64,000 bases of DNA from positions 224,667 through 288,666 of the forward strand of contig DAIDHV010000001.1 of assembly GCA_027451905.1 (NCBI GenBank). The letters run 5' to 3'. Shown in pieces: positions 15,393-63,356 of this stretch. The notes beneath the pieces are model-generated. The model was not told the DNA's origin. It worked only from the letters and a program-made list of their open reading frames with translations, and searched no databases. Within the stretch, counting starts at the first letter, position 1. Each line of letters starts with the position of its first letter. Origin of the DNA: Armatimonadota bacterium. Lineage in GTDB: Bacteria; Armatimonadota; Fimbriimonadia; Fimbriimonadales; Fimbriimonadaceae. The translations under genes were made by a program, and so were the position numbers.

Positions 15393-16934
15393 TTACCGCC
15401 GCCAGCTTACAACCGTCACCGCAAACGGGTTGAGCTTGATGGCGCCATCTTTGATGCCAATCCTTCTGGCTGGATTATCTCCTGTCTTCTCATCTACGCT
15501 TAAAGCCGAAGCTCCCTTAGAATTGGGAATACCAATATAAATTGGGCTTGCGCTTTTGTTGATCAAAAGAATTTTGTTGCCAGATCTTGTGTGGTAAGCC
15601 TGAACTTCTACCTGATCGCTGCCCTCGCCAGAAACCTGAGTATCCACCAAATGGTCGCCAGGATGGAAGTTATCTTTGAGCAGTTTTAACACCCAAAACC
15701 TTGCATTGGGCTTGTTGGTCGTCCAATCCATCATGCTCACGCTGGGGTACTGGGTTGGATAACCAACCAACTGGGATTCTCCCACAATATCAACTTTAAG
15801 CTTAGACAACTCAACATAAAGGTAGGCAAAAAGAGAACCCGCCAGATTCCAGTAGGCATGAGGAGGGGGAATGCTGTCTTTGGGACCGTTGTCGGTAGGC
15901 AAAATCACCCCAAGTTCATCAATATCGGTCTTTGTTTTAGGGGACAATTCTTCACGCACGGCTTGAATCTTGCCTACGGTTCCCAAAAAGCCCTTGGCCT
16001 GGGCAAAGAAAGTTGCCGGCCACTGGGCAAGAGTTTGGTTAGGTCCCGGAGAGGCATAGAAATGGTAAGAAATATAATTGATGGGGATACCAGGCTTATG
16101 GTTTGCAGGATTCAAAAAGTATTTGATGAAATCCATATCGTTGCCCGGAAAAGCCAAAGCCATTCCCATAAACTGGGTTGTTGGGCTTGCCTTGTGAATA
16201 CCAGCAACAATGGCGTCGTATCGCTTTGTGTAGTCTTGTGGTGAAGTTGAATGTTCCGCTTCGACCTCATTGAGGACCTCCCAAATCGCGATCTTATAGT
16301 GGTAGCCAGAATTGTGTCGCACTCCATCTTCATCAACAAATCCTCCATCCACATACCAGCTTGCTAAGCGGCGGTAGTAATCCCCAAGCTGCTTTCCGCT
16401 CGGATCATTGAGAACGGTGCCTTGCGTGTAGTTCCAATAGGGCTGGTTCGGATCTTTTGGATAGGTCACTGGGCTTGGAGTCTTGAATAGCCAAGCCGGC
16501 ATCGTACTAAAGTTCATTACCACGGGATGCCCCTTTGTTGAATTTAAAAATGCGGTTGTGATGGGGTCAATAAGGTTAAAATCCCAAAATGTTTTTTTGT
16601 CAGTGGGTGGTTTCAATTCTGCAACTCCCAATCGAGGATAGGGTAGCCATGGCACGAATCGAACATCGTTGGCTCCCAACAATTTGAGGGCATTAAATGC
16701 GGCTTTCCCAAGCGGCTGACCCGGACGCAGCGGTGGGTTGACAACCACCTGAAGCGTTGGAGTTGATCGAGAAACTAAGGTTGTCTTGTGCCAGTTGACA
16801 ACGAGCGTTAAATTTTGCTGGGCAATAGCAGAACCGGAGACCGAAAGCCCGGCGAGAGTGGAAAAGACCAGCCAAGCTCTTTTAGCCTTGAAGAAAAATA
16901 GAAAATGCGTCCTGATGACCACGCTTGTGAGCAT
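15393..16934 (-). CDS. secreted GH39-like glycoside hydrolase
   Basis: Exported (alpha/beta)8-barrel glycosidase of about 513 residues. The start at ATG 16934 gives a signal peptide (AWLVFSTLAGLSVSGSAIA, cleaved about residue 39). The clan-A acid/base motif WEVLNEVE lies at about residue 220, preceded by a barrel strand with VVMNFSTMPAWLF, as in GH39 beta-xylosidase/iduronidase relatives. A C-terminal beta-sandwich (KILLINKSASPIYIGI) follows. The second catalytic glutamate is less clear; VGESQLVGY is a candidate. Substrate is unknown; the neighbouring polysaccharide genes suggest plant or bacterial glycan turnover. A longer TTG start at 16958 is less likely. Confidence 0.65.
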   Translation of the reverse strand: MLTSVVIRTHFLFFFKAKRAWLVFSTLAGLSVSGSAIAQQNLTLVVNWHKTTLVSRSTPTLQVVVNPPLRPGQPLGKAAFNALKLLGANDVRFVPWLPYPRLGVAELKPPTDKKTFWDFNLIDPITTAFLNSTKGHPVVMNFSTMPAWLFKTPSPVTYPKDPNQPYWNYTQGTVLNDPSGKQLGDYYRRLASWYVDGGFVDEDGVRHNSGYHYKIAIWEVLNEVEAEHSTSPQDYTKRYDAIVAGIHKASPTTQFMGMALAFPGNDMDFIKYFLNPANHKPGIPINYISYHFYASPGPNQTLAQWPATFFAQAKGFLGTVGKIQAVREELSPKTKTDIDELGVILPTDNGPKDSIPPPHAYWNLAGSLFAYLYVELSKLKVDIVGESQLVGYPTQYPSVSMMDWTTNKPNARFWVLKLLKDNFHPGDHLVDTQVSGEGSDQVEVQAYHTRSGNKILLINKSASPIYIGIPNSKGASALSVDEKTGDNPARRIGIKDGAIKLNPFAVTVVSWRR

Positions 16935-16971
16935 ATCACACAGGCCACTGCTATGCAATTTGGTGGCTTAA

Positions 16972-17941
16972 GCCGCTAAACAGTCCTGGCAAGAAGCTGT
17001 GACTGCTGCGCCCGAGACTGGGTCATTCATCCGCAAATTGTAGGTCGCGTGCGGGACAATGCCACCGCTGCCGGAGGGTCCCGTGGCAACAACCGTCGCA
17101 CCAGATGAACCTTTTGGTTGGTAAAGTTCAACGCCTCAACAAGAAAAGGTGACACTTACGATGCCATCCGGCTGGGCATCCGCCATACCAAGAACACCAA
17201 TGTCCGGTACCTGGGCACCCTGGGGCAATGCACTCAGAGGATTGGAGCTCGACAAATTGGGAACATTTCCACTTCCAAAAAAGAACAAGTACCACGGGCT
17301 ACTTGTCTCCCCTAGTACATCACGGTAACCAGCCGTATAGGCATTCGCCGAAGTATCCCACACCCAGGAGGCAAATAATAATTGCCTGCTTACCACGGCG
17401 GTGCCTCTGCTTGCACTGTCAATGGCCCGCCGATTGTAACAACCCAATCTTGACCAGTGACTTGGGTTGAGTTGCCAGTTGCATTGTTCTTAAAATAAAC
17501 TGTGCAGGATATCCAAGTATAAGAGGTTCCGGTTCCAAAGCTATAACCCGACGCAGTGACAGAGTCACCGCCTTGGTTGAACCACACAACACCAGGTTCC
17601 AAATTGGCAGGAGGGGTAGAACTGCTGGAATTAGCCCATAAATACCCAGTTATAGCCCAGTTTCCTAGATTGCTCACCGTTGCCGTTCCCGAGACCGAGG
17701 CGCACACACAGCCCGGTTGGGATTGGCCCGGCGCGGTAATACCGCTATTGTAATTAAGCTTAAGAACGTTAGATGCGGCTTTGACCGTTACAGTTGGACC
17801 AACCGGGATTTGAGCAAAGCTTGAGCGGGCACCAAGACCGAACAAACTATCTATAACGAAATAAGGAGCTTTGAGCTTTGAGCTTTGAGCTTTGAGCTTT
17901 GAGCTTTGAGCTTTGAGCTTTGAGCTTTGAAGAACTGACAA
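16972..17941 (-). pseudogene. decayed secreted protein gene with heptamer-repeat 5' end
   Basis: Three coding segments on the minus strand appear to be parts of one gene. Segment 1 (17941-17390) has an N-terminus built from a DNA heptamer repeat (SSKLKAQ units), a signal-like stretch ending RSSFAQIPVGP, and a Ser/Thr/Gly/Asn-rich beta-type domain; it stops at APPW. Segment 2 (to 17136) continues in another frame from about 17400-17440 (ASRGTAVVSRQLLFASWVWD). It ends at a TGA (17136-17138), after which the same frame continues as segment 3 (GVELYQPKGSSGATVVATG...) to a TAA at about 16972. A frameshift and a stop codon thus separate plausible protein. No family was recognised. Confidence 0.5.
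17866..17928. repeat. nine tandem copies of heptamer GAGCTTT
   Basis: Nine exact head-to-tail copies of GAGCTTT (AAAGCTC on the minus strand), 63 bp in all, fall between two possible start codons and the signal-like sequence of the decayed secreted-protein gene. Because the unit is not a multiple of three, each gain or loss of a copy shifts the reading frame. With nine copies the TTG at 17941 is in frame; an ATG-initiated frame slightly upstream (MIKFCQFF) would come into frame with seven or ten copies. Confidence 0.9.
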
Positions 17942-18060
17942 AATTTAATCATCCCAAGTTCCGTAACCCTATTAAAACAAACTCTTCCAAAAATGCAAGC
18001 AAGAATCAAACAAAGGATTGCAATCCTCCTTTCGGCTAAACGCAGACCTACTGACTTAAT

Positions 18061-20151
18061 TCAAGCGACTTCGTCTTCGTACTCTTCGTAGGCAACCGAA
18101 GTTGGGCCCTTGGCCTTGCCGGGACGATTGTAAATCACCCCTAAGATGTTAGTTCGCGTTCGCTTGAGCATTTCCATGCAGTATCGGATCGAAGTCTTGT
18201 GGGTCACCCCGACCTTAATCACAAAAACGGAACCGTCACAAGCATCAGCCGCAACCTGAGCGTCTGCGCTGGCAAGTGCAGCCGACGTATCCACGATAAT
18301 GAAGTGGAACTGTTCCTTAAGATCGTCTAGCAGCACGGTAAAGGCTTCTGATGCAAGCAGTTCCGTTGAGCTGCCTGCTTCTGACCCCGCTGTGATCACC
18401 TTTAAGCCCTCAACATCTGTCTCTTGAAGGACCTCGCGAGCGGTCTTGTAACCCAAAATGACATCCGTCAAACCAGGACCCTCTGCCAAATTCATGACTT
18501 TGTGCAAAGAAGGTCGGCGTAAGTTCGCATCAATCAAAACCACATCATGAGAACCAAGTGCCATCGAGGCGGCAAGGTTCGAGGCAATTTCGGAACGCCC
18601 TTCATTATTTCTGCCGCTGACAACCGCAATGGAACGCATAGGTTCTCCTCCAACCGTAAACAAGAGGTTTGATCTGAGTAGACGGAAGTTCTCGGCCTGA
18701 TTGGCATCGCCAGCCACCACCAAAGAACGGGCCGAATTTGGCAAGGGAACTGCCCCAAGGTTGCGACTTCCTGCAATAGCCCTTGCGTTTTCCACCGTGT
18801 ACACCCTATCATCCAGCCTTTCTTTGATGCCAACTACTCCAAGCCCTACCGCGATTGCAAACACAAAGGATGCCGCCATGTAAATGGGCCAGTTGGGCTT
18901 GATTTGCTTGGGTGGCGTCACGGCTCCAACTTCTTGGACAGGAGGCTGAGCTTCACTTTGACGCTGTTCCAAATCCAGCAAGGTCTTTTGAGAAATCTGA
19001 AGGCCGTTTTGGGCATCAATAACCTTTTGATTCAGGTTATCGTAAGTGCCCTTATGGCTTGTAATAAAATCAACTCGATCTTTTGCCGAATTCATTTTCT
19101 GAAGAGCAACTGTGGCTGCCGATGCCGCTCCTTCGTACTCGGATTTGGCACCTGCAATCTTCTCGTGCAAAACGTCTAATAGAGGATTTCTGATCAACCT
19201 GCCTGTGTTAATGACCTGAGGCAGTTGATCAACAAACTTTCTTTGGACATTGACCTGATTTTGAAGCTGCTGCACCTTGGGATTATTGCTTCGGTAAAGA
19301 ACCTTGGCTTGAGCAAGCTGGCCTTCTAAGTCCGCTAATTTTGATCTTTGCTCCAACACATACTGCTCATTGTTCTGATTGGACTTATCTTGGATTTGGG
19401 CTGGTGTTGCTGCCAAAGTTGCTTCTAAGGAGTTCAGTGAACTTTGAGCATCAACCTCTTTTTGCTGAGCCTGAGAGTAAGTATCTTTGGCATCCGCGTA
19501 GTCTCTCAAGGCATAGTTTGTATCATCATCAATTTGGGTGATGTTGGTGCTTGCACGGAACTTTTGCAGCGCCGACATTGCCGAATCTAACTTGGCTTTT
19601 GCCGTATTTTCCCGAGTTTGGGCAAACCGGATTGCATCGCTAAGTGCCTTTTGCAGAGCTTCGCGCTCATACGACGCGTAGGTCACAGGAATTTGCTGGG
19701 CCAATTGATAGGCAAGGGTCTGATTTCGAGAATCGACACTGACTACCAACACGTTTGTCATACTGGCCTGTTGAACCGAGACTAAGGGATCCTGAATGAG
19801 GTCTGGAGATGGCAAAGGTGGCTGCTTACCAATCGCTAGCATAGAATCTCTTAAAACATCAAAACCCTGTAAAACTTCAATTTGGCTGGGGATGTCATCC
19901 ACGGTGGGGGTTAAAGAAACGTTGTTGAGCGGGTCAAACTGACTGGGGCTCGACATAAATTGCTGGTTTCGCCCCTGAACAAGGATGCTAATTTGAGACC
20001 GGTACACCTTGTCAATCTGCAGCGTATAAAGCACCGCCAAAACCATAACAATAAGGAATGTGCCCACAAACAACACCCAGCGTCTTTTGAGGGTTGCAAA
20101 GTAGTCTCGAAGCCTTGCTTCTTGTTGAAGTGGATATGGATCGTTTCTCAT
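18061..20151 (-). CDS. Wzz/BY-kinase-like exopolysaccharide protein with altered P-loop
   Basis: Full-length co-polymerase/autokinase architecture of 696 residues: cytoplasmic N-terminus, helix at about 26-46, Wzz domain, long coiled-coil (about 170-400), second helix at about 418-438, and a cytoplasmic BY-kinase domain. Walker A' (VVLIDANLRRPSL) and Walker B (FIIVDTSAAL) are well kept. The P-loop reads SGRNNEGRSE, with arginine in place of the invariant lysine (about residue 519). The C-terminus has only two nearby tyrosines (AYEEYEDEVA) rather than a long cluster. BY-kinases normally phosphorylate their own tyrosine tail to control polysaccharide length. Here catalysis may be weak or lost. 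The gene stands alone, divergent from imuB, 14 kb from the Wza gene. Confidence 0.87.
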   Translation of the reverse strand: MRNDPYPLQQEARLRDYFATLKRRWVLFVGTFLIVMVLAVLYTLQIDKVYRSQISILVQGRNQQFMSSPSQFDPLNNVSLTPTVDDIPSQIEVLQGFDVLRDSMLAIGKQPPLPSPDLIQDPLVSVQQASMTNVLVVSVDSRNQTLAYQLAQQIPVTYASYEREALQKALSDAIRFAQTRENTAKAKLDSAMSALQKFRASTNITQIDDDTNYALRDYADAKDTYSQAQQKEVDAQSSLNSLEATLAATPAQIQDKSNQNNEQYVLEQRSKLADLEGQLAQAKVLYRSNNPKVQQLQNQVNVQRKFVDQLPQVINTGRLIRNPLLDVLHEKIAGAKSEYEGAASAATVALQKMNSAKDRVDFITSHKGTYDNLNQKVIDAQNGLQISQKTLLDLEQRQSEAQPPVQEVGAVTPPKQIKPNWPIYMAASFVFAIAVGLGVVGIKERLDDRVYTVENARAIAGSRNLGAVPLPNSARSLVVAGDANQAENFRLLRSNLLFTVGGEPMRSIAVVSGRNNEGRSEIASNLAASMALGSHDVVLIDANLRRPSLHKVMNLAEGPGLTDVILGYKTAREVLQETDVEGLKVITAGSEAGSSTELLASEAFTVLLDDLKEQFHFIIVDTSAALASADAQVAADACDGSVFVIKVGVTHKTSIRYCMEMLKRTRTNILGVIYNRPGKAKGPTSVAYEEYEDEVA

Positions 20152-20321: not shown

Positions 20322-20347
20322 TATAATAGTAGACATATATGTACTAT
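20322..20347 (+). promoter_or_regulatory. imuB promoter with SOS-operator-like dyad
   Basis: A consensus -10 box TATAAT (20322-20327) lies 11 bases before the imuB ATG (20339), giving a near-leaderless message. Overlapping it is an inverted repeat, ATAGTA (20326-20331) and TACTAT (20342-20347), separated by 10 bases; a 10-bp palindrome ACATATATGT sits inside. A repressor bound here would cover the -10 box, start site and start codon. Since imuB-dnaE2 cassettes are usually LexA-controlled, this is a candidate LexA site, though it does not match a known consensus exactly. Confidence 0.5.
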
Positions 20348-21496
20348 ATTGGGTTCTGTTTGCTTGAGCAGTTCTATGTTGACCAAGTGCAAAAAATGGC
20401 AACGTCCAGCCAGCCCCTTATGATTACATTTCAAAAACAAGTCTTAGATTCATGCCCTTTGGCCCGGGCAAAGGGAGTATTGCCTGGTTCGGCGGTAAGC
20501 GTAGCCAAAGCCATTCTTGGCCCCCAATCTTGCGGCCTCAGTTGGAACCAGCAAGATTACATCGAAGGCCAAGAAAGGTGGCTGCACGTTTGTGAAAAAT
20601 ACACCGATGCCATTGAACCGATCCATCAACACAGTGCTTACCTTGATCTCTCTGCCCATGCCCAACCAGAAGACATCGCTGCCATCTTAACCCGAGACCT
20701 GCAAGCCAACGGTTTTCAGGCAAAAATCGGCATTGGTGGCAATAAGTGGATCGCAGAAATGACCGCTACACACGGAGATCCTGGCCATATTGCCTTGATC
20801 ATGCCCAGAAAATATGTGGGCGGCTTCCCCGTTTCTTTGCTTCCTTGCCAACCCAGCCACATTAAAAAACTCACTCTCTTAGGCTGCCATCGGATTGGAG
20901 ACATCCTTTCTATACCGTCACAAGCGCTTCGCGCACAATTTGGAGAAGATGCTACTGTTTTACGCAAACTTGCTCTCGGTGGAGACGATCCGTACGTTCG
21001 CGCGATCTATCCAAAAGACACCATTTCCGCTGTCTTTTGGCCATCAAGCCCCATAGAAACTACACTCCATCTCGAAAGTTGTCTGGAAGTTGTCTCACAA
21101 AGGATAGGCGACAAACTAGAAAAAGCCGACAAGTTAGGTCACGGAATAGGACTTTACCTAGAAAGAGAAGATAAACCACCCTTGCAACGCAAAAGGACGT
21201 TTGTTAAGCCTATTTTTGATGCCATAACCGCCATTCATGCTCTTAGGTCAATGACGGTTTTGCTGCACGAGCCAGTTATAGCCATTCGCGCTCAGATTAT
21301 TGATCTCAAACCTAGGCAGCGTCACCAACCCAGCTTAGATGGACCCAATGATAGTGCCGCTAAAAAGCAAAAAGCAGAACAAGCCATTCAATCCGTACAG
21401 AAATTATTTGGGGAAACTGCGGTTCAGCCAACTTCTGCCATGGTGACTCCCCGGCAGCTCTACCTAAGAGCCTTTCACGATGAACACAAACCCTGA
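20339..21496 (+). CDS. imuB: ImuB-like inactive Y-family DNA polymerase
   Basis: A 385-residue protein of the Y-family polymerase fold, acting as the adaptor of the ImuB-DnaE2 damage-induced mutasome. The N-terminus (MYYIGFCLLEQFYVDQVQ) aligns with the first strand of DinB/UmuC but lacks the metal-binding aspartates. The second catalytic site, normally S-x-D-E, reads HSAYLDLS. Loss of these residues is the hallmark of ImuB. The finger/thumb part (GCHRIGDILSIPSQALRAQFG) carries the helix-hairpin-helix that binds DNA. It overlaps dnaE2 by 17 bases, so translation is coupled. No ImuA/SulA-like gene is adjacent. Confidence 0.75.
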   Translation: MYYIGFCLLEQFYVDQVQKMATSSQPLMITFQKQVLDSCPLARAKGVLPGSAVSVAKAILGPQSCGLSWNQQDYIEGQERWLHVCEKYTDAIEPIHQHSAYLDLSAHAQPEDIAAILTRDLQANGFQAKIGIGGNKWIAEMTATHGDPGHIALIMPRKYVGGFPVSLLPCQPSHIKKLTLLGCHRIGDILSIPSQALRAQFGEDATVLRKLALGGDDPYVRAIYPKDTISAVFWPSSPIETTLHLESCLEVVSQRIGDKLEKADKLGHGIGLYLEREDKPPLQRKRTFVKPIFDAITAIHALRSMTVLLHEPVIAIRAQIIDLKPRQRHQPSLDGPNDSAAKKQKAEQAIQSVQKLFGETAVQPTSAMVTPRQLYLRAFHDEHKP

Positions 21497-24400
21497 TCAA
21501 CAAATCCTTGCCCGATGGAGGGAAAGCTACGGCTGGTGGAACGACGAACCCTACCGCGAGGTTATCAAGACCCTTGACGGCAACGGCAAAGTCCACCGCA
21601 TCGAAAAACATGCCCCTCCCCTCGGCCAAAAGTTGAGTTCTGGCCAAACTCAACACAAAGAAGATCACACCCAAGATTGGGGACTGAAAGAGAAAAAGGT
21701 CAGAGATGTCAAGGCTGCCCTTGCTCAGGGACGCCTTCCAAGCCATTATTATGACCGGCAGATTCAAGAACGGCATGGGCTGCCAACCTTCCAATCAAGT
21801 TCCATGCTCAAGCAGGGTAGTCATTACGCCCCGCTTCGATGCATCAGTGGATACTCATTTGGTCGGTCTGTGATTCTTGCAGAAGAGCTTCCCGCCCTTG
21901 CCGCCGCTGCTGGATGCAGTGTAGCCGCCATCACCGATCATTTTTCCCTTTCCGGAGCCTATGAATTTGCCAAAGCCGGCAAAAGACACGGAATCAAAAC
22001 GATCCTCGGAGCAACCTTCACCTTAGAGGGAGGCGGTGATATTGTCTTGCTTGTCCGCAATAAAACCGGATACCGCAACCTATGTCGATTGATCACAAAA
22101 TGCCACCTTGAAGAGCCTAGAGGATTTCCACTGGCTAACCTTGATCGGATTGCCCAACACGCCGATGGCTTGATTTGCCTCACTGGCGGCGATCGTGGGC
22201 CAATCAATCTTTTGCTGCAGACTGGTAAAGATAAAGAATCCTATGAATACCTATCTTTATTGTCCAATATCTTCAAAAAAGGCTCCCTCTATATAGAAAT
22301 AGAAAGATCCTTTCATCCTTGGACCCAGGCCATCAACTCCAAGCTTCTACAACTTGCCGATAAATCAGGAGTTCCATTTGTGGCAGGTGGACCCATTACC
22401 CATGCAAGAAGAAGTCACTTCCCTGCCCAAGATATCCTTGCCTGCGCTCACAATCTTGCCACGGTAGAAGACCCAATCGGACGCAAACCTTTTTATGATG
22501 ATGGGCAAAGCCCTTTGCCAAGTCATCCAAGAAGAGCCCTTAATGCAGAGCATTTTTTTCATAGCGGACAAGAAATGGCTGCCCTTTTTGCCGACATTCC
22601 CCAAGCCTTACAGAACAGCCTTGAAATTGCAGAAAAGTGCGATAGCGACGTTTTTCCATCACGTCCGCCCCTTCCCTCCCTTTTTGAAGACGACGATATT
22701 GCCTTGCGAGAAATTGTGGAGGCAAATGCCCATTTTGCCTATCCCAATTACACACCTCTCCACCGACAAAGGCTAAGGATGGAGGTCGATCGCATCATTA
22801 GGTTGGGGTTTTCCAGTCACTTTCTGATTGCTTCTGAAATGTGTCGATGGGCTGGCGAGCACGCCATCCATCTCAGCGGACGCGGTTCGGCAGTTGATTC
22901 TGCTGTCGCCTATGTTCTTGGCTTTTCTCGCATTGATGCCATCAAACACAACTTGCATTTTGACCGCTTTTTGCCTGCCGACGGATCGAAAAGGCCCGAT
23001 ATAGACATTGATTTTGAAGCTCGTCGACGTGATGAAGTCCGCGGATATCTCATCCGCCGTTTTGGAGTGGAAAGAACCGCCCAAGTGGCAGCAATCGGCT
23101 CTTATCGCACACGCGGCATCCTCAGGCAGGTGGGTAAGGCTATGGAACTGCCCGAGTCTTTGGTCAACGAGTTGGCTAAAAGGCTGCATGGAGGTGTCTC
23201 GCCCGATCATCTTGCTGATGCCCTTAGCAAACGACCGGAATTAAGAGACCACCCCATGGATAAAGCCCGCTTTAGGTGGGCAATACAACTGGCTGGAAGG
23301 CTGATGGATGTTCCCTTTGATATCGGCTGCCACTCATCGGGGCTTGTGGTCAGTTCTCAACCAATATCAGATTACGTTCCCATTATGTGGTCGGCAACAC
23401 CAAGCCACCCCACCGCCCAAACCACAGAACCCTTTTTGCGCCTCATGCAGTGGGATAAACGATCAAGTAAGTCTCTGTTTGATAAATTTGATATCTTGTG
23501 CCTGCGCGGGCAAGACGTTATCTCTGGAACCGAACAGCGCATGCGTGTTCACCAACCCACATTCGATGCCAAAAAAATTGATGTTGATGACCCTGAGATT
23601 TATCGAGCCATGCGCAGTGGAGAACTGATCGGCATTCCCCAATCTGCGTCCCCTGCCATGCGTCAGGCCCACATTCGTTTACAAACCAATAACCTTCATG
23701 ATGCCAGCCTCGTTCAGGCTGGCATCAGGCCAGGGGTGGGCGGAGCCGTGAAAATCAATGAACTCATTGCACGGCGCCGTGGCAAACCATTCCAGTTTGC
23801 CCACCCCGATTTTGAACCTATTCTTGGTCACACCTATGGGATTATTGTGTTCCAAGAACAAGTGGACCAGCTTCTGCAGCATTTCTGTGGGTGTACATCG
23901 GGCGAGGCAGAAGACATCCGAGATTCCATCCACAAAAGAAGGCGAGAAGATTACGGCCAAGCCATTCGAGAGCAATTGCTAGACCGCTGCCTTGCTCAAG
24001 GTTTTTCCGCCGAGACCGCAGAACATGTTTGCAACCTTGTTGCAGGTTTTAAGGGCTTTGGATTTGCCCAAGGACACGCCCTTGCCTTTGCCGAGGTCTC
24101 TTTGCGCAGCCTCTATTTGATGCAGAACCAGCCAAGTTCTTATTTTGCCGCCCTTCTTTCTGCTCAGCCAGCAGGATATTATGGACCCTGCACCATTGCC
24201 AATGAAGCCCGCTTGCGAGGAGTTGCCATGCTGCATCCTTGCGTCAATCGCAGCCAGGAATTGTTTACGGTGGAAGATATCTCCATGCAATCCGGACTAA
24301 CCATCCCTGATGCCGCCATCCGCACAGGGCTTATGCAAATAAATGGCATTAGTTCTGGTTTGAAGGAACGTATTATCGCCTCCCAACTGCAAGTCACCGC

Positions 24401-25187
24401 TCCTTTCTATAAGCCGCTGGTGCCATTGCAAGAAGTTGGTTTGAAGCATCGGCTTGGCCATATTGCCCTTTTAGATGCCCAACAAGACCCACCACTGCCT
24501 TTAGCTCCAAAGGCATTTGCAAGTTTTTTTGACTTTGCCGCCAAGACCAATCCCCATCAAGATGAGTTGGAAGCCTTAATCCTTGCTGGTGCCTTTGATG
24601 ACTTGTGCCCCAACCGTCGCGCTCTTCTATGGGCCATTCCCCTTGCTCAAGAGTATGCAAGGGCAAGCAAGGCACTATCCGGCCCCGACACCTTACCCAT
24701 CCAACTCCCTGAACCTCCACTAGAAGCCAACATTGAAGACTTCTCGGTTGAAGAAAAAGCGGTTCTGCAACGCTCGGTGTTAGGCATGGATATTGATCAC
24801 CACTTGATGGCATTTGAACGGGAAAGGGTAAGCAGAAAGGCGATGACCACCCTAGAAATCAAGTCCCAGTCAGATGGGCAACATGCAATGGCGGTCGGTA
24901 ATCCTATTCGCCTTCGCTTCCCGCCAACCGCATCCGGCAAACGGGTGGTCTTTTTTGACCTTGAGGATGAAACCGGTCTTTTGAATGTCACCGCATTTGA
25001 TGATGTGTATCAGGTTTTTGGCAAAGCCATTGTCACCTCACCTTATGTGACCGTTATCGGTGAGGTGCAAAATCGGGATGGACACAAAGCCTTTTTGGCC
25101 CATGAGGTGTATTCCTATAAACCTGCCTTACTCAAGAAAACCAACACTTCCATCCCCATCCACGGCGCCGACTTCCTTGGTCGATAG
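21480..25187 (+). CDS. dnaE2: error-prone DNA polymerase III alpha subunit (DnaE2) with N-terminal extension
   Basis: C-family polymerase of 1235 residues used in translesion synthesis with ImuB. The PHP domain starts near residue 117 (YAPLRCISGYSF; AITDHFSLSGAYEF); the expected first PHP histidine is cysteine here. The polymerase core holds GRGSAVDSAVAYVLG (about 470) and the catalytic PDIDIDF (about 506-512). The beta-binding/HhH region follows, and a C-terminal OB domain (about 1140-1235, FFDLEDETGLLNVTAF) closes it. About 115 extra N-terminal residues include ARWRESYGWWNDEPYRE and DGNGKVHRIE, which resemble the WW...Y..V..DG module usually found at the end of ImuB or as a separate small partner protein. 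Encoded directly after, and overlapping, imuB. Confidence 0.85.
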   Translation: MNTNPDQQILARWRESYGWWNDEPYREVIKTLDGNGKVHRIEKHAPPLGQKLSSGQTQHKEDHTQDWGLKEKKVRDVKAALAQGRLPSHYYDRQIQERHGLPTFQSSSMLKQGSHYAPLRCISGYSFGRSVILAEELPALAAAAGCSVAAITDHFSLSGAYEFAKAGKRHGIKTILGATFTLEGGGDIVLLVRNKTGYRNLCRLITKCHLEEPRGFPLANLDRIAQHADGLICLTGGDRGPINLLLQTGKDKESYEYLSLLSNIFKKGSLYIEIERSFHPWTQAINSKLLQLADKSGVPFVAGGPITHARRSHFPAQDILACAHNLATVEDPIGRKPFYDDGQSPLPSHPRRALNAEHFFHSGQEMAALFADIPQALQNSLEIAEKCDSDVFPSRPPLPSLFEDDDIALREIVEANAHFAYPNYTPLHRQRLRMEVDRIIRLGFSSHFLIASEMCRWAGEHAIHLSGRGSAVDSAVAYVLGFSRIDAIKHNLHFDRFLPADGSKRPDIDIDFEARRRDEVRGYLIRRFGVERTAQVAAIGSYRTRGILRQVGKAMELPESLVNELAKRLHGGVSPDHLADALSKRPELRDHPMDKARFRWAIQLAGRLMDVPFDIGCHSSGLVVSSQPISDYVPIMWSATPSHPTAQTTEPFLRLMQWDKRSSKSLFDKFDILCLRGQDVISGTEQRMRVHQPTFDAKKIDVDDPEIYRAMRSGELIGIPQSASPAMRQAHIRLQTNNLHDASLVQAGIRPGVGGAVKINELIARRRGKPFQFAHPDFEPILGHTYGIIVFQEQVDQLLQHFCGCTSGEAEDIRDSIHKRRREDYGQAIREQLLDRCLAQGFSAETAEHVCNLVAGFKGFGFAQGHALAFAEVSLRSLYLMQNQPSSYFAALLSAQPAGYYGPCTIANEARLRGVAMLHPCVNRSQELFTVEDISMQSGLTIPDAAIRTGLMQINGISSGLKERIIASQLQVTAPFYKPLVPLQEVGLKHRLGHIALLDAQQDPPLPLAPKAFASFFDFAAKTNPHQDELEALILAGAFDDLCPNRRALLWAIPLAQEYARASKALSGPDTLPIQLPEPPLEANIEDFSVEEKAVLQRSVLGMDIDHHLMAFERERVSRKAMTTLEIKSQSDGQHAMAVGNPIRLRFPPTASGKRVVFFDLEDETGLLNVTAFDDVYQVFGKAIVTSPYVTVIGEVQNRDGHKAFLAHEVYSYKPALLKKTNTSIPIHGADFLGR

Positions 25188-25342: not shown

Positions 25343-27103
25343 ATGCGAAAGAAAGTTTTATATGGATTGATGTTTATTCTGGCACTGATGCCAGCGATTG
25401 GGTGTGCCTCTATTGTTCATTCCGTCGACAACCTTGTTGGGCTCAAACAACTCAATCTCATTCGTAGCCTCAGTAGATCCAAACAACACCCTGGTTTTCC
25501 CAGCCAGCTTGTTGCCAATCAAGTCTACATTATTAATTACCTCGGAGCCGCCTATTGCCAATACTTCGTCATTGGTTCTTCCACTGCTAGTGGCCAGGAC
25601 CTAGCCAAAATCCTAGATCGTTGGCAGATGTCTAAATTGATTAACCACAAGGTGAGATGGTCGGAAGATTCCAGCGGCAGCGCTGCAGTTCTAAACTTTA
25701 CAAACAAGAGCCACTTCTTTAGCAGCGGCAGTACGGAAGTATCTCCAATTGGCTCGTTGGTCGAGGCATTTCGTCAGGCTGGCTATCAAACATTTCCCGT
25801 GGTTCGTAGCTGGAACTACCTTGCCGTATCGGGAGCCGGACCGAAAGTTTTTGGCGGCCGCGTAGTAGCCTATGATGAACTGGGAGTTGACCCAAGCAGC
25901 CAAGTTCTCGCATCTGCCTCCGTTTCTCCAGTTTTAAAGTGGCTCAGTTGCCTATGGTTTGGGTTTCTCTTAGTTACTTTTTTGATTGGTTTTGCGCTTG
26001 CCCAATACCTGGTCAAGAACAGTAACCGCCCCTTATATGAAAGAAGAAAGATCTACCGCAAATGCATTTTTGGAGGTGCGTTCGGGGGGATGGGCTTTCA
26101 TTTCATTTTTTTCCAATACTTGATCATAACCACAACCTTGTATAAATTGACTGACCTGTGGACGGGCAGCCCAGATGCTGGGCCCTCAATCTTAGCATTA
26201 CCTTTGGGCACCTTTCCAATGTTGCTTGCGTTGCCGTTCATCTCAAAATTGGAGTCAAAGGTATTGATACCACGAGACGATTTCGAACGGGAAGCCCAAG
26301 CAATTTTCTCTGCAAAGCCGGATACAGTAAAAGTTACCCACGACCAGTTCACTCAGCGTTCTCGCATAAAATCATTGAAACTCACAATAATGGTTGCGAT
26401 CCTATTGTTAGCAATCGTAGCTCAATTTGCTTTCAGGCCCCATGGGGCTAGCTTCATTCTGCTGGGATTTATTGCTGAACTTTTCGCCAACGTTTTATTC
26501 GATGCTTTCTTGCCCAAAAATTTAAAAGTTATCGCCACAGACGGAAGCGAGATTTCGGCTGATTTCGATCTCAGCCAAATTTCAGGCAATTTGGCGGCCA
26601 ATCTGGGAAGACCTAGCTTGCTAGTGAAAGTCCGCAAAGATCCCCAAGCTCAGATGCTTGCCTCCTGTAGCCACAACAAGGAGTCAATCTTGATTACACA
26701 ACGGATGCTGGAAATTCTCAACCAAGACGAACTGAAATTTGTACTAGCTCGAGAGATTTTGGGTGATAATAGTCGCACCACCAAAAAAATCCTCTATCCA
26801 ATCTTGCTCGCTTGCTTACTGCCAGACGTATTTATTGGTTTCGTCATTTTTAAAAGATCTCACGTTGACTTCATTTGGATCGCCGCCGCCGTCAGTTTGC
26901 CGGTCCTTGCAATTCCATTCGTTTTGCTTAATTCAACAAGGACCCGACTTAATGAAGCAATCCTCTTAGACAGACAAGTGGTTGATCGAATTGGTGGCAG
27001 AGACCATGCCATTTCGGCTATAAAAAAAATCGAAGCGGCAAGGGCACTAATTCCATCGCCTCCAAATGACATAAAGAAAAGAATTGATTTTCTGCAACCG
27101 TGA
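25343..27103 (+). CDS. multi-span membrane protein with catalytically dead M48-like peptidase domain
   Basis: A 586-residue membrane protein: N-terminal signal/anchor (about 4-22, with a cysteine at GCAS that could be a lipobox), an extracytoplasmic domain (about 25-195), then a group of helices (about 200-290) and two more at about 345-385. The following domain has the layout of M48 peptidases (HtpX/Ste24): SILITQRMLEILNQDELKFV is followed by LAREILGDN where active members have LAHELGHV. The zinc-binding HExxH is therefore absent. The downstream ExxxxxD region is also altered (RLNEAILLDRQVVD). It looks like a pseudo-protease with retained fold. It is transcribed alone, with a -10 box close to the ATG. 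Function unknown. Confidence 0.65.
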   Translation: MRKKVLYGLMFILALMPAIGCASIVHSVDNLVGLKQLNLIRSLSRSKQHPGFPSQLVANQVYIINYLGAAYCQYFVIGSSTASGQDLAKILDRWQMSKLINHKVRWSEDSSGSAAVLNFTNKSHFFSSGSTEVSPIGSLVEAFRQAGYQTFPVVRSWNYLAVSGAGPKVFGGRVVAYDELGVDPSSQVLASASVSPVLKWLSCLWFGFLLVTFLIGFALAQYLVKNSNRPLYERRKIYRKCIFGGAFGGMGFHFIFFQYLIITTTLYKLTDLWTGSPDAGPSILALPLGTFPMLLALPFISKLESKVLIPRDDFEREAQAIFSAKPDTVKVTHDQFTQRSRIKSLKLTIMVAILLLAIVAQFAFRPHGASFILLGFIAELFANVLFDAFLPKNLKVIATDGSEISADFDLSQISGNLAANLGRPSLLVKVRKDPQAQMLASCSHNKESILITQRMLEILNQDELKFVLAREILGDNSRTTKKILYPILLACLLPDVFIGFVIFKRSHVDFIWIAAAVSLPVLAIPFVLLNSTRTRLNEAILLDRQVVDRIGGRDHAISAIKKIEAARALIPSPPNDIKKRIDFLQP

Positions 27104-55347: not shown

Positions 55348-56046
55348 ATGGAGCCGCCAATCCGTCAAGATCAAACCAATAGCTGGTACCGAGAAATTCG
55401 GTCTGTCTTTTTGAAGGAAATTTTAAGTGAAGGAAGGGCACCCCATTCCATTCTAACCGGAGCCCTGTTTAGCCTTATCGCGGTGGTTGCCATCTCGTTG
55501 ACGTCTTATAACCATGCCCTCCAGCCAACACTGGCCTCTGGGCTGCTTTGGGTTGTTTTGCTTTTTGCATCCGTGATGTCCTTGCCAAGGATGATGCTTG
55601 CCGAAGAAGACCTAGGCACTGGCGACCTTTTACGCTTAACCGCCCGCCCTCATTCCATTTTTTGGGGCAAGTTGTTCTTTAATCTTGGCCAGTTGATCAT
55701 CCTGGCGGTTATCTTGTGTCTTTTGTTTGTCTTGTTCAACAATTTGACAGTTCCCCACCCAGGAATTTTTATTTTTGGAGTTCTTGGAGGTTGCACCGCG
55801 GTTAACGCCTCTGTCACACTTGCCGGCGCCCTTTCTGCAAGAGCCTCCAATAGATATGCTCTTTCAACCGCAATTTCCGTCCCCCTCATCTTGCCAATTG
55901 CGTCGTGGGGAGTCTCTGCCGTGAGGACCGGATTTGGCACCGGATTTGTAATGGATGGTCAACACGCAGTGCTGGGGCTCTTCAGCTATGGGATCGCGGC
56001 AAGCGCTGTCGGGCCCTTTATTTACGCTGCAATCTGGAAATCATAA
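55348..56046 (+). CDS. ccmB: heme exporter permease CcmB
   Basis: A 232-residue membrane protein with six hydrophobic helices, the CcmB pattern. An N-terminal cytosolic segment (WYREIRSVFLKEILSEGRAP) precedes the first helix; the block SVMSLPRMMLAEEDLGTGDLLRL after helix 2 is characteristic of CcmB. It forms the membrane part of the CcmAB transporter. In an operon with ccmA upstream and ccmC downstream after 50 bases. Confidence 0.88.
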   Translation: MEPPIRQDQTNSWYREIRSVFLKEILSEGRAPHSILTGALFSLIAVVAISLTSYNHALQPTLASGLLWVVLLFASVMSLPRMMLAEEDLGTGDLLRLTARPHSIFWGKLFFNLGQLIILAVILCLLFVLFNNLTVPHPGIFIFGVLGGCTAVNASVTLAGALSARASNRYALSTAISVPLILPIASWGVSAVRTGFGTGFVMDGQHAVLGLFSYGIAASAVGPFIYAAIWKS

Positions 56047-60722: not shown

Positions 60723-63356
60723 GTGATCTCTGTCCAAAACCCGCTGGCGGAAGTCTCCACGTTCATTTACGATGGCTGCCTTTTGCAAGCAGAAGTGAAT
60801 CCACTGAACCAAAGAACCACGTACACATATGGCAGGTTTAACCGTCGAACCTTGGTGGAAAATGCCCTCGGATTCGTCACTACGACCAACTACGATTCGA
60901 TGGGCTACCCCATTGCGTTTATAGATGCCAATGGCAACGTGAACACAACAACCTATGACCTCGCTCATAGGGTCATTGCCCAAACCGATCCTCTTGGTTA
61001 CGTAACCACCTTCGGTTACGATTCGGCTGGGCGACAGAACCAAGTCACCAACCCGCTGGGATTCATCACAACTTCCGTATTCAGCGCCCGTGATCTCATT
61101 GCCTCTATTGATGCCCTTGGCAACCGCACCAGTTACAGCTATGACGCCATGGCAAGGCGAACCGCGATCGAAGACCCCCGCGGCTACCGATCTACAAGCC
61201 AGTATGACCTTGCCGGGCAGGTCACCACAACAATAGACGCCTTGGGGCATAGCACAACCTACGGCTACAACCTGAACGGCGGACAAATTCTTGTCACCGA
61301 TCCCCTCGGCAATTCCAGCCAAACCGTATACTTTTCCAACTCCAATCAGGTTCAAGCCACTGTAGACGCCCTTAGCAACCGAACCACCTACACCGTTGAT
61401 CTTGCCGGACAGCAAACCGCACGTCAAGACGCCAATGGCAACATCATTTCCTTTGGTTACGATCTTGCCGGAAGGCAAACCGTCATCCAAAACGAACTTG
61501 GCTACTCCACAACCACCTCCTACGACGCGGCGGGACGCCCCTCCACCATCATCGATGCCAATGGCTGGCTCCGCACCCTCACCTTTGATGCAGTCGGACA
61601 AGAACTTGTGATCGCTTACGCCGATGGCTCTGCCGTGACCTCCGCCTACGACCCAGTTGGCAATCGCACGACAATGATGGACTGGGGAGGCACCAGCACC
61701 TATGCCTTTTCAGCCCGAAACGAACTTCTTGTTGCGTCCACTCCAACCGGCTACCCGCAGTCTTATAGCTATGATCCGGTGGGAAACAGGGGCGGTTTGG
61801 TAAATCCAGACGGCACACTAGTGACCTACTCTTACAATGGCAATAACGCCCTGACTACCCAACAGCTTCCGGGCGGAAGAACCTACACCACCCAATACGA
61901 TTCGGCTAGCAACCCCACAACCATTCTCTTTAACGGAGGTCAAAGGTTGATGAGCTATGATGGACTTGGCAGGGTGATCACTCAAACTGAATACCGGGGA
62001 GTGAATGTGATCTCCACCATCACCGATGGCTATGACGCAGGTGGCAGAAAGGTCAGCCAGACAAGGGATGCTAATACAACTTTGTATTCTTATGATGCCA
62101 TCAACCGTCTCACCGGCCAAAGCCTTTCTGGTGCGGCTGCAACCTACAGCTATGATAATATTGGCAACCAAACCCTAAAGTGGCAAGAAGGCTCTAGCCC
62201 GATGACAATGAGTTATGATCCTGCCTCTCGGCTGACGACGATGGTTCAGGGTAGCAATACGACCACGTATGGGTATGACAATAATGGCAATACGACCATT
62301 GAGTCGATCCCTGGTGGCTCGACTTATTACGCGTACGATTATGATCCTAGGAATCGTTTGACCGCGTATAATCTGGAGACCGGTGGCAGTACCTTGCCAA
62401 TTGCGACGATTTCCTATGATGGAGACGGGCTGAGGCGAACCAAATGGGCGAGTTTAAACGTAACAACCTATATCTGGGATGGAGTGGATTATTTGGCAGA
62501 GGAAACCGGAGCGGCCCTTGATGTAGTTTATGCAACTGTGAATGGGCAATTGGCTGAAGAGAACAGGGGTGGGACGGTGACCGAATATGTTCCTGACACC
62601 TTGGGATCGGTGATCCAAACCACAAACGCCTCCGGAGCCCAAACTTCTTCTGCCTATTACTGGCCCTATGGAGAAACTAGAACTTCCACCGGAACTAACC
62701 CCAGCCCGTGGAACTTCGTGGGCACTTTTGGCTACTACATGGATTACCCCAGCCTGGCAAGTGGCCCGCCGCAAAGATATTACATTCGCGCCAGAGACTA
62801 CCGCCCCGATCTCTCCCGCTGGCTCACCACCGACCCCCTCTGGCCAATTGAGGCTTCTTATAGCTACTCGAACCTAGACCCCGTTGGTCTGCTGGACCCT
62901 TCTGGGGAAAAATGCCGATCTTTTGTCACTCAGCTAAGCGACCATAGCTGGAAAAAGGTTACAAACTGCAATCGAAGGGAGTATCTGGTATTCCACCTAA
63001 CCTTTCCATGCATGAAGATCGACCCATATTTTTGCTTCCCTCCATTTATACCGGGTCTGTGCCATGAAACCATATCAATTCCATGCGACATCACTGACAT
63101 TACGACAGAGTATCACATAAGCAGGGTCTCGAGGGACAAATTACAGGGGCTGTGCGATCTCTACAGTGGCTTTGGAGTTGCGGCGTGTGTCAGAGCTGGA
63201 GGGGGGCCACTTTGCTTGTTACTACCCGTCCTGTGCTTTCTCGGTCACAACTCTTGCGTCAACCCCGATGGGAGCCAGTGCTTTAAATTTAGGTCGAGGT
63301 TTAATCCCTGTATGTGGCAGGGCGGGCCGGGTTCTGGGTTCACGGGTTGCTGTTGA
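60723..63356 (+). CDS. RHS/YD-repeat protein with cysteine-rich C-terminal tip (5'-truncated)
   Basis: A long RHS protein of at least 877 residues from the GTG at 60723. The same frame, with good YD-repeat sequence, is open back to about 60603 and beyond into msrB without an ATG; a CTG at 60606 has AAGAGG five bases upstream. The usual N-terminal RHS regions are therefore missing. The body is about 20 tandem YD repeats of roughly 21 residues (DLAGRQTVIQNELGYSTTTS type). A conserved core closes it (RYYIRARDYRPDLSRWLTTDP; NLDPVGLLDPSG, to residue 728). The 149-residue tip that follows has 15 cysteines and one hydrophobic stretch (GGPLCLLLPVLCFLG), and resembles no toxin I know. The stop overlaps the next start as TGATG. 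Confidence 0.85.
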   Translation: MISVQNPLAEVSTFIYDGCLLQAEVNPLNQRTTYTYGRFNRRTLVENALGFVTTTNYDSMGYPIAFIDANGNVNTTTYDLAHRVIAQTDPLGYVTTFGYDSAGRQNQVTNPLGFITTSVFSARDLIASIDALGNRTSYSYDAMARRTAIEDPRGYRSTSQYDLAGQVTTTIDALGHSTTYGYNLNGGQILVTDPLGNSSQTVYFSNSNQVQATVDALSNRTTYTVDLAGQQTARQDANGNIISFGYDLAGRQTVIQNELGYSTTTSYDAAGRPSTIIDANGWLRTLTFDAVGQELVIAYADGSAVTSAYDPVGNRTTMMDWGGTSTYAFSARNELLVASTPTGYPQSYSYDPVGNRGGLVNPDGTLVTYSYNGNNALTTQQLPGGRTYTTQYDSASNPTTILFNGGQRLMSYDGLGRVITQTEYRGVNVISTITDGYDAGGRKVSQTRDANTTLYSYDAINRLTGQSLSGAAATYSYDNIGNQTLKWQEGSSPMTMSYDPASRLTTMVQGSNTTTYGYDNNGNTTIESIPGGSTYYAYDYDPRNRLTAYNLETGGSTLPIATISYDGDGLRRTKWASLNVTTYIWDGVDYLAEETGAALDVVYATVNGQLAEENRGGTVTEYVPDTLGSVIQTTNASGAQTSSAYYWPYGETRTSTGTNPSPWNFVGTFGYYMDYPSLASGPPQRYYIRARDYRPDLSRWLTTDPLWPIEASYSYSNLDPVGLLDPSGEKCRSFVTQLSDHSWKKVTNCNRREYLVFHLTFPCMKIDPYFCFPPFIPGLCHETISIPCDITDITTEYHISRVSRDKLQGLCDLYSGFGVAACVRAGGGPLCLLLPVLCFLGHNSCVNPDGSQCFKFRSRFNPCMWQGGPGSGFTGCC

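Follow-up and report, generated by a model that had tools for sequence, protein, structure and literature searches.

A perfect array of the heptamer GAGCTTT, present in a single place in the genome that carries it, belongs most plausibly with the heptameric simple sequence repeats, a kind already known from bacteria. Replication slippage would have grown this repeat, between a putative chain-length-determinant gene and a broken gene, at the 5′ edge of a lineage-specific gene that later decayed and whose product was apparently of exported type. The locus probably holds no working switch, and we regard this account as a whole as the likely one. Because the array is stop-free in every frame of the minus strand, a mechanical ORF finder runs straight through it and reports what looks like a frame-switchable 5′ end. 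The product is truncated in every setting, and thus the locus most likely does not work as a phase switch at present. Present function of any kind is most likely absent.

The array and its neighbours

Tandem Repeats Finder places (GAGCTTT)9.3 at positions 17866-17930 of the window, by which we mean the whole 64-kb stretch of DNA that was analysed. The array has a period of 7, 9.3 copies and 100% matches, as the nine perfect units reported by a first-pass annotation had promised. The program found no other tandem repeat in the window at a score of 40. The longest period-7 self-match run covers 58 bases; no run exceeded 12 bases in 100 first-order Markov sequences of equal length. The perfect array is real and far above chance. 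On the minus strand its unit reads AAAGCTC; this strand alone is stop-free in all three frames, and it encodes the seven-residue repeat KAQSSKL.

The genome is a 37-contig draft of 2,871,635 bases. The first-pass annotation had pointed to further copies of the heptamer as a telling check, and no second site with three or more GAGCTTT units was found in the 2.87 Mb. An exact scan for units of 2-15 bases, run on a 464-kb sample (20 stretches of 20 kb each plus the window), returned one heptamer array, which was the window's own, together with two pentamer arrays and one trimer array. That the array is both the window's only tandem repeat and the genome's sole site of at least three units speaks for a simple sequence repeat. 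Plasmid origin was also checked, with no match among plasmid records. An RNA element was considered and rejected: the sole Rfam match, to a microRNA family, scores 27.8 bits where the gathering score is 100, falls on the repeat and was taken as a repeat artefact.

Both flanking genes lie on the minus strand, with the array and the broken gene between them. The upstream neighbour (18061-20151, minus strand) encodes a 696-aa protein that resembles polysaccharide chain-length determinants and tyrosine kinases (Pfam Wzz, 6e-08); its P-loop NTPase-like half gave ParA-like matches below the cut-off. The array starts ∼130 bp past the stop codon of this gene, and a 12-bp perfect palindrome, GGATTGCAATCC, occupies 18015-18026 in the interval. 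The downstream neighbour (15393-16958, minus strand) encodes 521 aa with a sub-threshold match to glycoside hydrolase family 39. Of 85 genomes of the family, 42 encode a relative of the upstream protein, the present one included. The best of the others are ∼30% identical, and there is therefore no clearly orthologous locus for comparison. Among the relatives searched, the genus is represented by only one genome. Two plus-strand ORFs of 385 and 1235 aa (20339-25187) adjoin the polysaccharide gene and have the look of what we take to be an ImuB/DnaE2-type error-prone polymerase pair. Elsewhere in the window, an 877-aa ORF (60723-63356, plus strand) carries 15 RHS repeat matches.

A gene body broken twice

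The reading of the downstream gene rests on codon usage, scored as log-odds in 30-codon segments after training on 28 ORFs of the window that we chose ourselves. In-frame segments score 0.16 (sd 0.08) and off-frame segments −0.22 (sd 0.13). From 18060 to the array, no frame of the minus strand is clearly coding-like. From ∼17850 onwards frame 0 scores −0.04 to 0.19 and is the sole frame open throughout. Frame 0 ends at 17390, and the coding-like signal shifts to frame 2 at ∼17440-17400, where it persists down to ∼16980, across a TGA at 17136. Because the signal changes frame and then crosses a TGA, the body contains both the frameshift and the stop that the first-pass annotation had described.

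The broken gene can be followed in three minus-strand parts. The first (17390-17865, frame 0) has a weakly secreted-like N-terminus and no family match; the second (17139-17447, frame 2) lies past the frameshift and runs up to the TGA (17136-17138) within the coding-like frame; the third (16974-17135) is still coding-like in frame 2. A programmed frameshift was set aside because the TGA at 17136 follows as a second disruption and inspection by eye revealed no classic slippery run.

The broken gene is without a confident relative in the genomes searched. A search of 100 other genomes at E 0.001 found nothing related to its N-terminal body. The C-terminal part, queried with an X at the stop, gave two marginal matches only (E 0.0077 and 0.0098) in 84 other genomes. 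None of the three pieces matched Pfam, NCBIfam or PHROGs, and the first piece found no relative among solved structures (best E 0.37).

Copy number and reading frame

Two possible start codons precede the array on the minus strand, in different frames as originally proposed: an ATG at 17950-17952 (frame 1) and a TTG at 17939-17941 (frame 0). The repeat unit is not a multiple of three and lies between start and body, so copy number sets the frame. At the present 9.3 units, only TTG 17941 is in frame with the body and opens into it, giving 183 aa. With one unit more or two fewer, only ATG 17952 enters the body, for a product of 189 or 182 aa, respectively. With one unit fewer or two more, neither start does. 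Frame arithmetic across copy numbers thus upholds the claim that gain or loss of a unit changes which start is in frame.

The frameshift near 17400-17440 and the TGA at 17136 mean that a full-length product is made at no copy number, and an intact downstream frame was found in no setting; translation stops at the frameshift in each of them. The phase-variation layout recognized in the first-pass annotation is therefore right as to the geometry of a switch, and is not supported as a working one. Further observations also disfavour a working switch. By eye, no convincing ribosome-binding site precedes either start. A scan restricted to consensus promoters found no promoter-like site upstream of or near the array on the minus strand; its three sites, against 1.2 expected, lie elsewhere or on the other strand. 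The genome has no second GAGCTTT array, and arrays of this unit in other genomes lie mostly outside genes or at gene edges, as set out below.

A hydrophobic segment upstream of the array

The stretch that follows the array, YFVIDSLFGLGARSSFA, is probably the one that had been called signal-like, a description in need of correction. It is only weakly hydrophobic: its best 12-residue hydropathy is 1.44, whereas 1305 open 25-residue stretches picked at random have a 95th percentile of 1.90. A strong hydrophobic segment, resembling a signal or membrane segment, is found instead upstream of the array in frame 1. This segment, AERRIAILCLILACIFGRVC (approximately 17960-18034, minus strand), has a hydropathy of 3.40, with two arginines just before it. 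Among 81,906 stop-free scoring windows in six frames of the window, only two further segments reach 3.3; these two sit inside long ORFs at 25343-27103 and 55348-56046. AERRIAILCLILACIFGRVC lies downstream of the chain-length-determinant gene's stop and shares its frame. It may be what is left of an export signal, now cut off from the body by the array.

Around this segment one could build a locus of translational phase variation, either live or extinct since recently. AERRIAILCLILACIFGRVC would serve as the export signal and KAQSSKL as the linker, changes in unit number would join or separate signal and body, and the present 9.3-unit state would be OFF for the frame-1 signal. Such a locus fits the frame arithmetic, the standing of AERRIAILCLILACIFGRVC among the three most hydrophobic segments of the window with two arginines before it, the absence of stops from every minus-strand frame of the array, and a neighbouring gene of surface-polysaccharide type. 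It does not fit a body that is broken twice downstream, from which no setting yields a whole product. No ATG, GTG or TTG stands ahead of AERRIAILCLILACIFGRVC in frame 1. The only candidate there is CTG 18045, and the next possible start, TTG 18009, already falls within the segment. The codon usage of AERRIAILCLILACIFGRVC is ambiguous (−0.06, against 0.16 for genes and −0.22 off frame, with sd 0.08 and 0.13). Neither several loci nor a conserved orthologue with repeats was found: the genome has one GAGCTTT site, and the N-terminal body has relatives in 0 of 100 other genomes. On balance we consider such a locus unlikely.

Equally built on AERRIAILCLILACIFGRVC is the idea of a contingency locus, cryptic or only recently extinct, in a lineage of free-living type. 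Here a frame-1 signal and a frame-0 secreted body would have been joined by KAQSSKL only at certain copy numbers, next to a surface-polysaccharide type gene, in a locus whose body is now truncated. This idea we hold to be distinctly unlikely. A switch that is extinct or cryptic is possible, and AERRIAILCLILACIFGRVC is what argues for it most strongly. The segment would join the body at +1 or −2 units and looks like more than an accidental ORF, a point that counts against a plain simple sequence repeat. The earlier suggestion of a former phase-variable or a decaying gene is supported as to decay, by the frameshift and the TGA, and a former switch is possible by way of AERRIAILCLILACIFGRVC.

Possible action outside the protein

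Heptamer tracts need not act through the reading frame. At hmw1A and hmw2A of Haemophilus influenzae, heptamer tracts located in promoters tune expression, according to the available text of PMC8262952 and PMC2651432. The array resembles these tracts in its place ahead of a gene whose product is of surface or exported type, where its copy number could alter expression. It differs in that hmw1A/hmw2A is a tested promoter rheostat with an intact adhesin gene, whereas the gene here is broken and the proposed effect is on the frame (PMC8262952, PMC2651432).

By analogy with the hmw1A tract, copy number might tune transcription or the structure of the mRNA 5′ end. The distance of the array from the upstream stop codon (∼130 bp) would suit this, and as DNA the array folds better than shuffled sequences (z −2.33). 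Against it, the 5′ region as RNA is no more stable than shuffles (z +1.39), the consensus scan gave no promoter-like site near the array on the minus strand, and the target under control would be a broken gene. We regard action of this kind as quite improbable.

GAGCTTT in other genomes

A scan of species genomes found four perfect GAGCTTT units in at least 118 stretches. Among the 80 matches listed, the phyla represented are, as we take it from the record titles, Bacteroidota, Verrucomicrobiota, Planctomycetota, Proteobacteria, Patescibacteria, Nitrospinota and others. One viral contig also carries a GAGCTTT array.

To assess placement, ORFs of 80 aa or longer were called mechanically in 118 of these stretches, which contain 126 arrays of three or more units. 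Of the 126 arrays, 59 lie wholly outside ORFs, 19 overlap them partly and 48 lie wholly inside. By comparison, 5000 random 35-bp segments from the same stretches gave 573 outside, 225 partial and 4202 inside. GAGCTTT arrays thus lie outside ORFs or at their edges beyond random expectation, which again speaks for a simple sequence repeat. This preference for intergenic positions and gene edges is seen in heptameric repeats, and the window's array precedes a coding-like body. The 7-bp tandem unit, in several perfect copies beyond chance, likewise agrees with that class.

Outside arrays with both neighbours known number 40, the remaining 19 of the 59 having been left out because a neighbour was missing. 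The nearest gene end is a stop for 30 of the 40 and a start for 10; 19 lie between tandem genes, 17 between convergent and 4 between divergent ones. From the outside and edge bias and the nearness of stops it follows that most GAGCTTT arrays are not placed for frame switching, while a minority could be. For all 48 inside arrays the stop-free strand is the coding strand, which is unavoidable. Ten of the 48 lie within 100 nt of a mechanical ORF start. The 48 inside arrays, with these 10 near a start, argue against a simple sequence repeat, being placed as coding phase-variable repeats would be. The length of the window's array argues the same way. Copy number across the 126 arrays has a median of 4.9 and reaches nine or more in 8; a perfect 9.3-unit array is long for GAGCTTT, which implies recent growth or maintenance.

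In three other genomes (L148, L135 and L100), the mechanical start of an ORF of 1110, 975 and 2277 bp lies 6, 24 and 56 nt, respectively, ahead of a GAGCTTT array. These would make better frame-switch candidates than the window's gene.

The breadth of the species scan suggested that GAGCTTT might be a special heptamer of bacteria at large, a functional element that had spread or been maintained across phyla. Four perfect units in at least 118 stretches of many phyla would fit this, as would the absence of the reversed control sequence from 35 of 36 genomes, a set biased by having been chosen for carrying GAGCTTT. Evenly drawn samples of two phyla, with the chosen centre excluded, go against it. 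None of the 239 genomes in one sample and none of the 397 in the other carried four GAGCTTT units, and the reversed control was found in 0 of 239 and 2 of 397. The same balance is seen close to home: among 101 genomes (its own and 100 relatives), arrays of at least three units occur in two, and those of the reversed control also in two. The counts from the even samples therefore mark GAGCTTT as a rare, scattered microsatellite, and we rejected a pan-bacterial element as very unlikely.

A generalised TTGAGNN family was also tried. Four units were present in 5 of 101 genomes and the reversed control in 6 of 101; the family was dropped because its control was as common. Two of these genomes do show an excess of forward over reversed TTGAGNN matches (94 vs 2 in G013 and 19 vs 4 in G090). 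G013, a relative of the same family (L201-L220), has 48 heptamer arrays of many different units in 221 kb, vs 6 arrays whose period is not 7 (four of period 8 and one each of periods 6 and 9, with periods 2-15 scanned). Such richness in heptamers is a further point in favour of a simple sequence repeat. Seven of its 48 heptamer arrays fall within 86 kb that had not been selected for arrays. Of these 48, 26 lie outside ORFs, 4 partly overlap them and 18 lie inside.

An error of the draft assembly in the frameshift, the stop or the copy number is a reading to which we give hardly any credence: both disruptions could be assembly errors in a genome of 37 contigs, and this would count against a decayed gene, but the array is just 65 bases within a 645-kb contig, two independent disruptions fit decay, and the frameshift shows no long single-base run by eye.

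Relation to known heptamer repeats

Over-representation of heptamer repeats in many bacterial genomes was reported in 2007, as cited in PMC4692102 and PMC4679880, and a preference for slippage at seven bases may stem from interaction with DNA polymerase (PMC4692102, PMC4679880). The array shares with the bacterial heptameric repeats treated there a unit length of seven, a tandem arrangement and a mostly intergenic or intergenic-edge position. It differs in that the present genome has one array, and GAGCTTT is not named in the available text of either paper.

Particular families show the same mixture of likeness and difference. The GGGAATC arrays of Xanthomonas and the GGGGA(C/T)T arrays of Nostoc are likewise heptamer arrays, vary in length and are largely intergenic (PMC4692102). 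Their units are G-rich and can form quadruplexes, whereas GAGCTTT is not G-rich, and GGGAATC occupies ∼180 sites per Xanthomonas genome compared with one GAGCTTT site here (PMC4692102). TAACTGA, from Beggiatoaceae, Cyanobacteria and Bacteroidetes, is again a heptamer common to distant phyla, intergenic and near start codons (PMC4679880). One genome has 169 TAACTGA sets, each of 2 to 6 copies (PMC4679880), compared with a single GAGCTTT set of 9.3 here. Judging by titles, literature searches for GAGCTTT, its rotations or KAQSSKL returned nothing on bacterial repeats, and none of the matches listed joined Armatimonadetes with tandem repeats and phase variation.

The locus is a clean example of a stop-free 7-bp repeat that mimics a phase-variable 5′ end in raw sequence. 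Beyond this one site, a heptamer that is sporadic across phyla and biased towards gene edges, together with the dominance of period 7 in the related genome G013, bears on why bacterial microsatellites favour seven bases.
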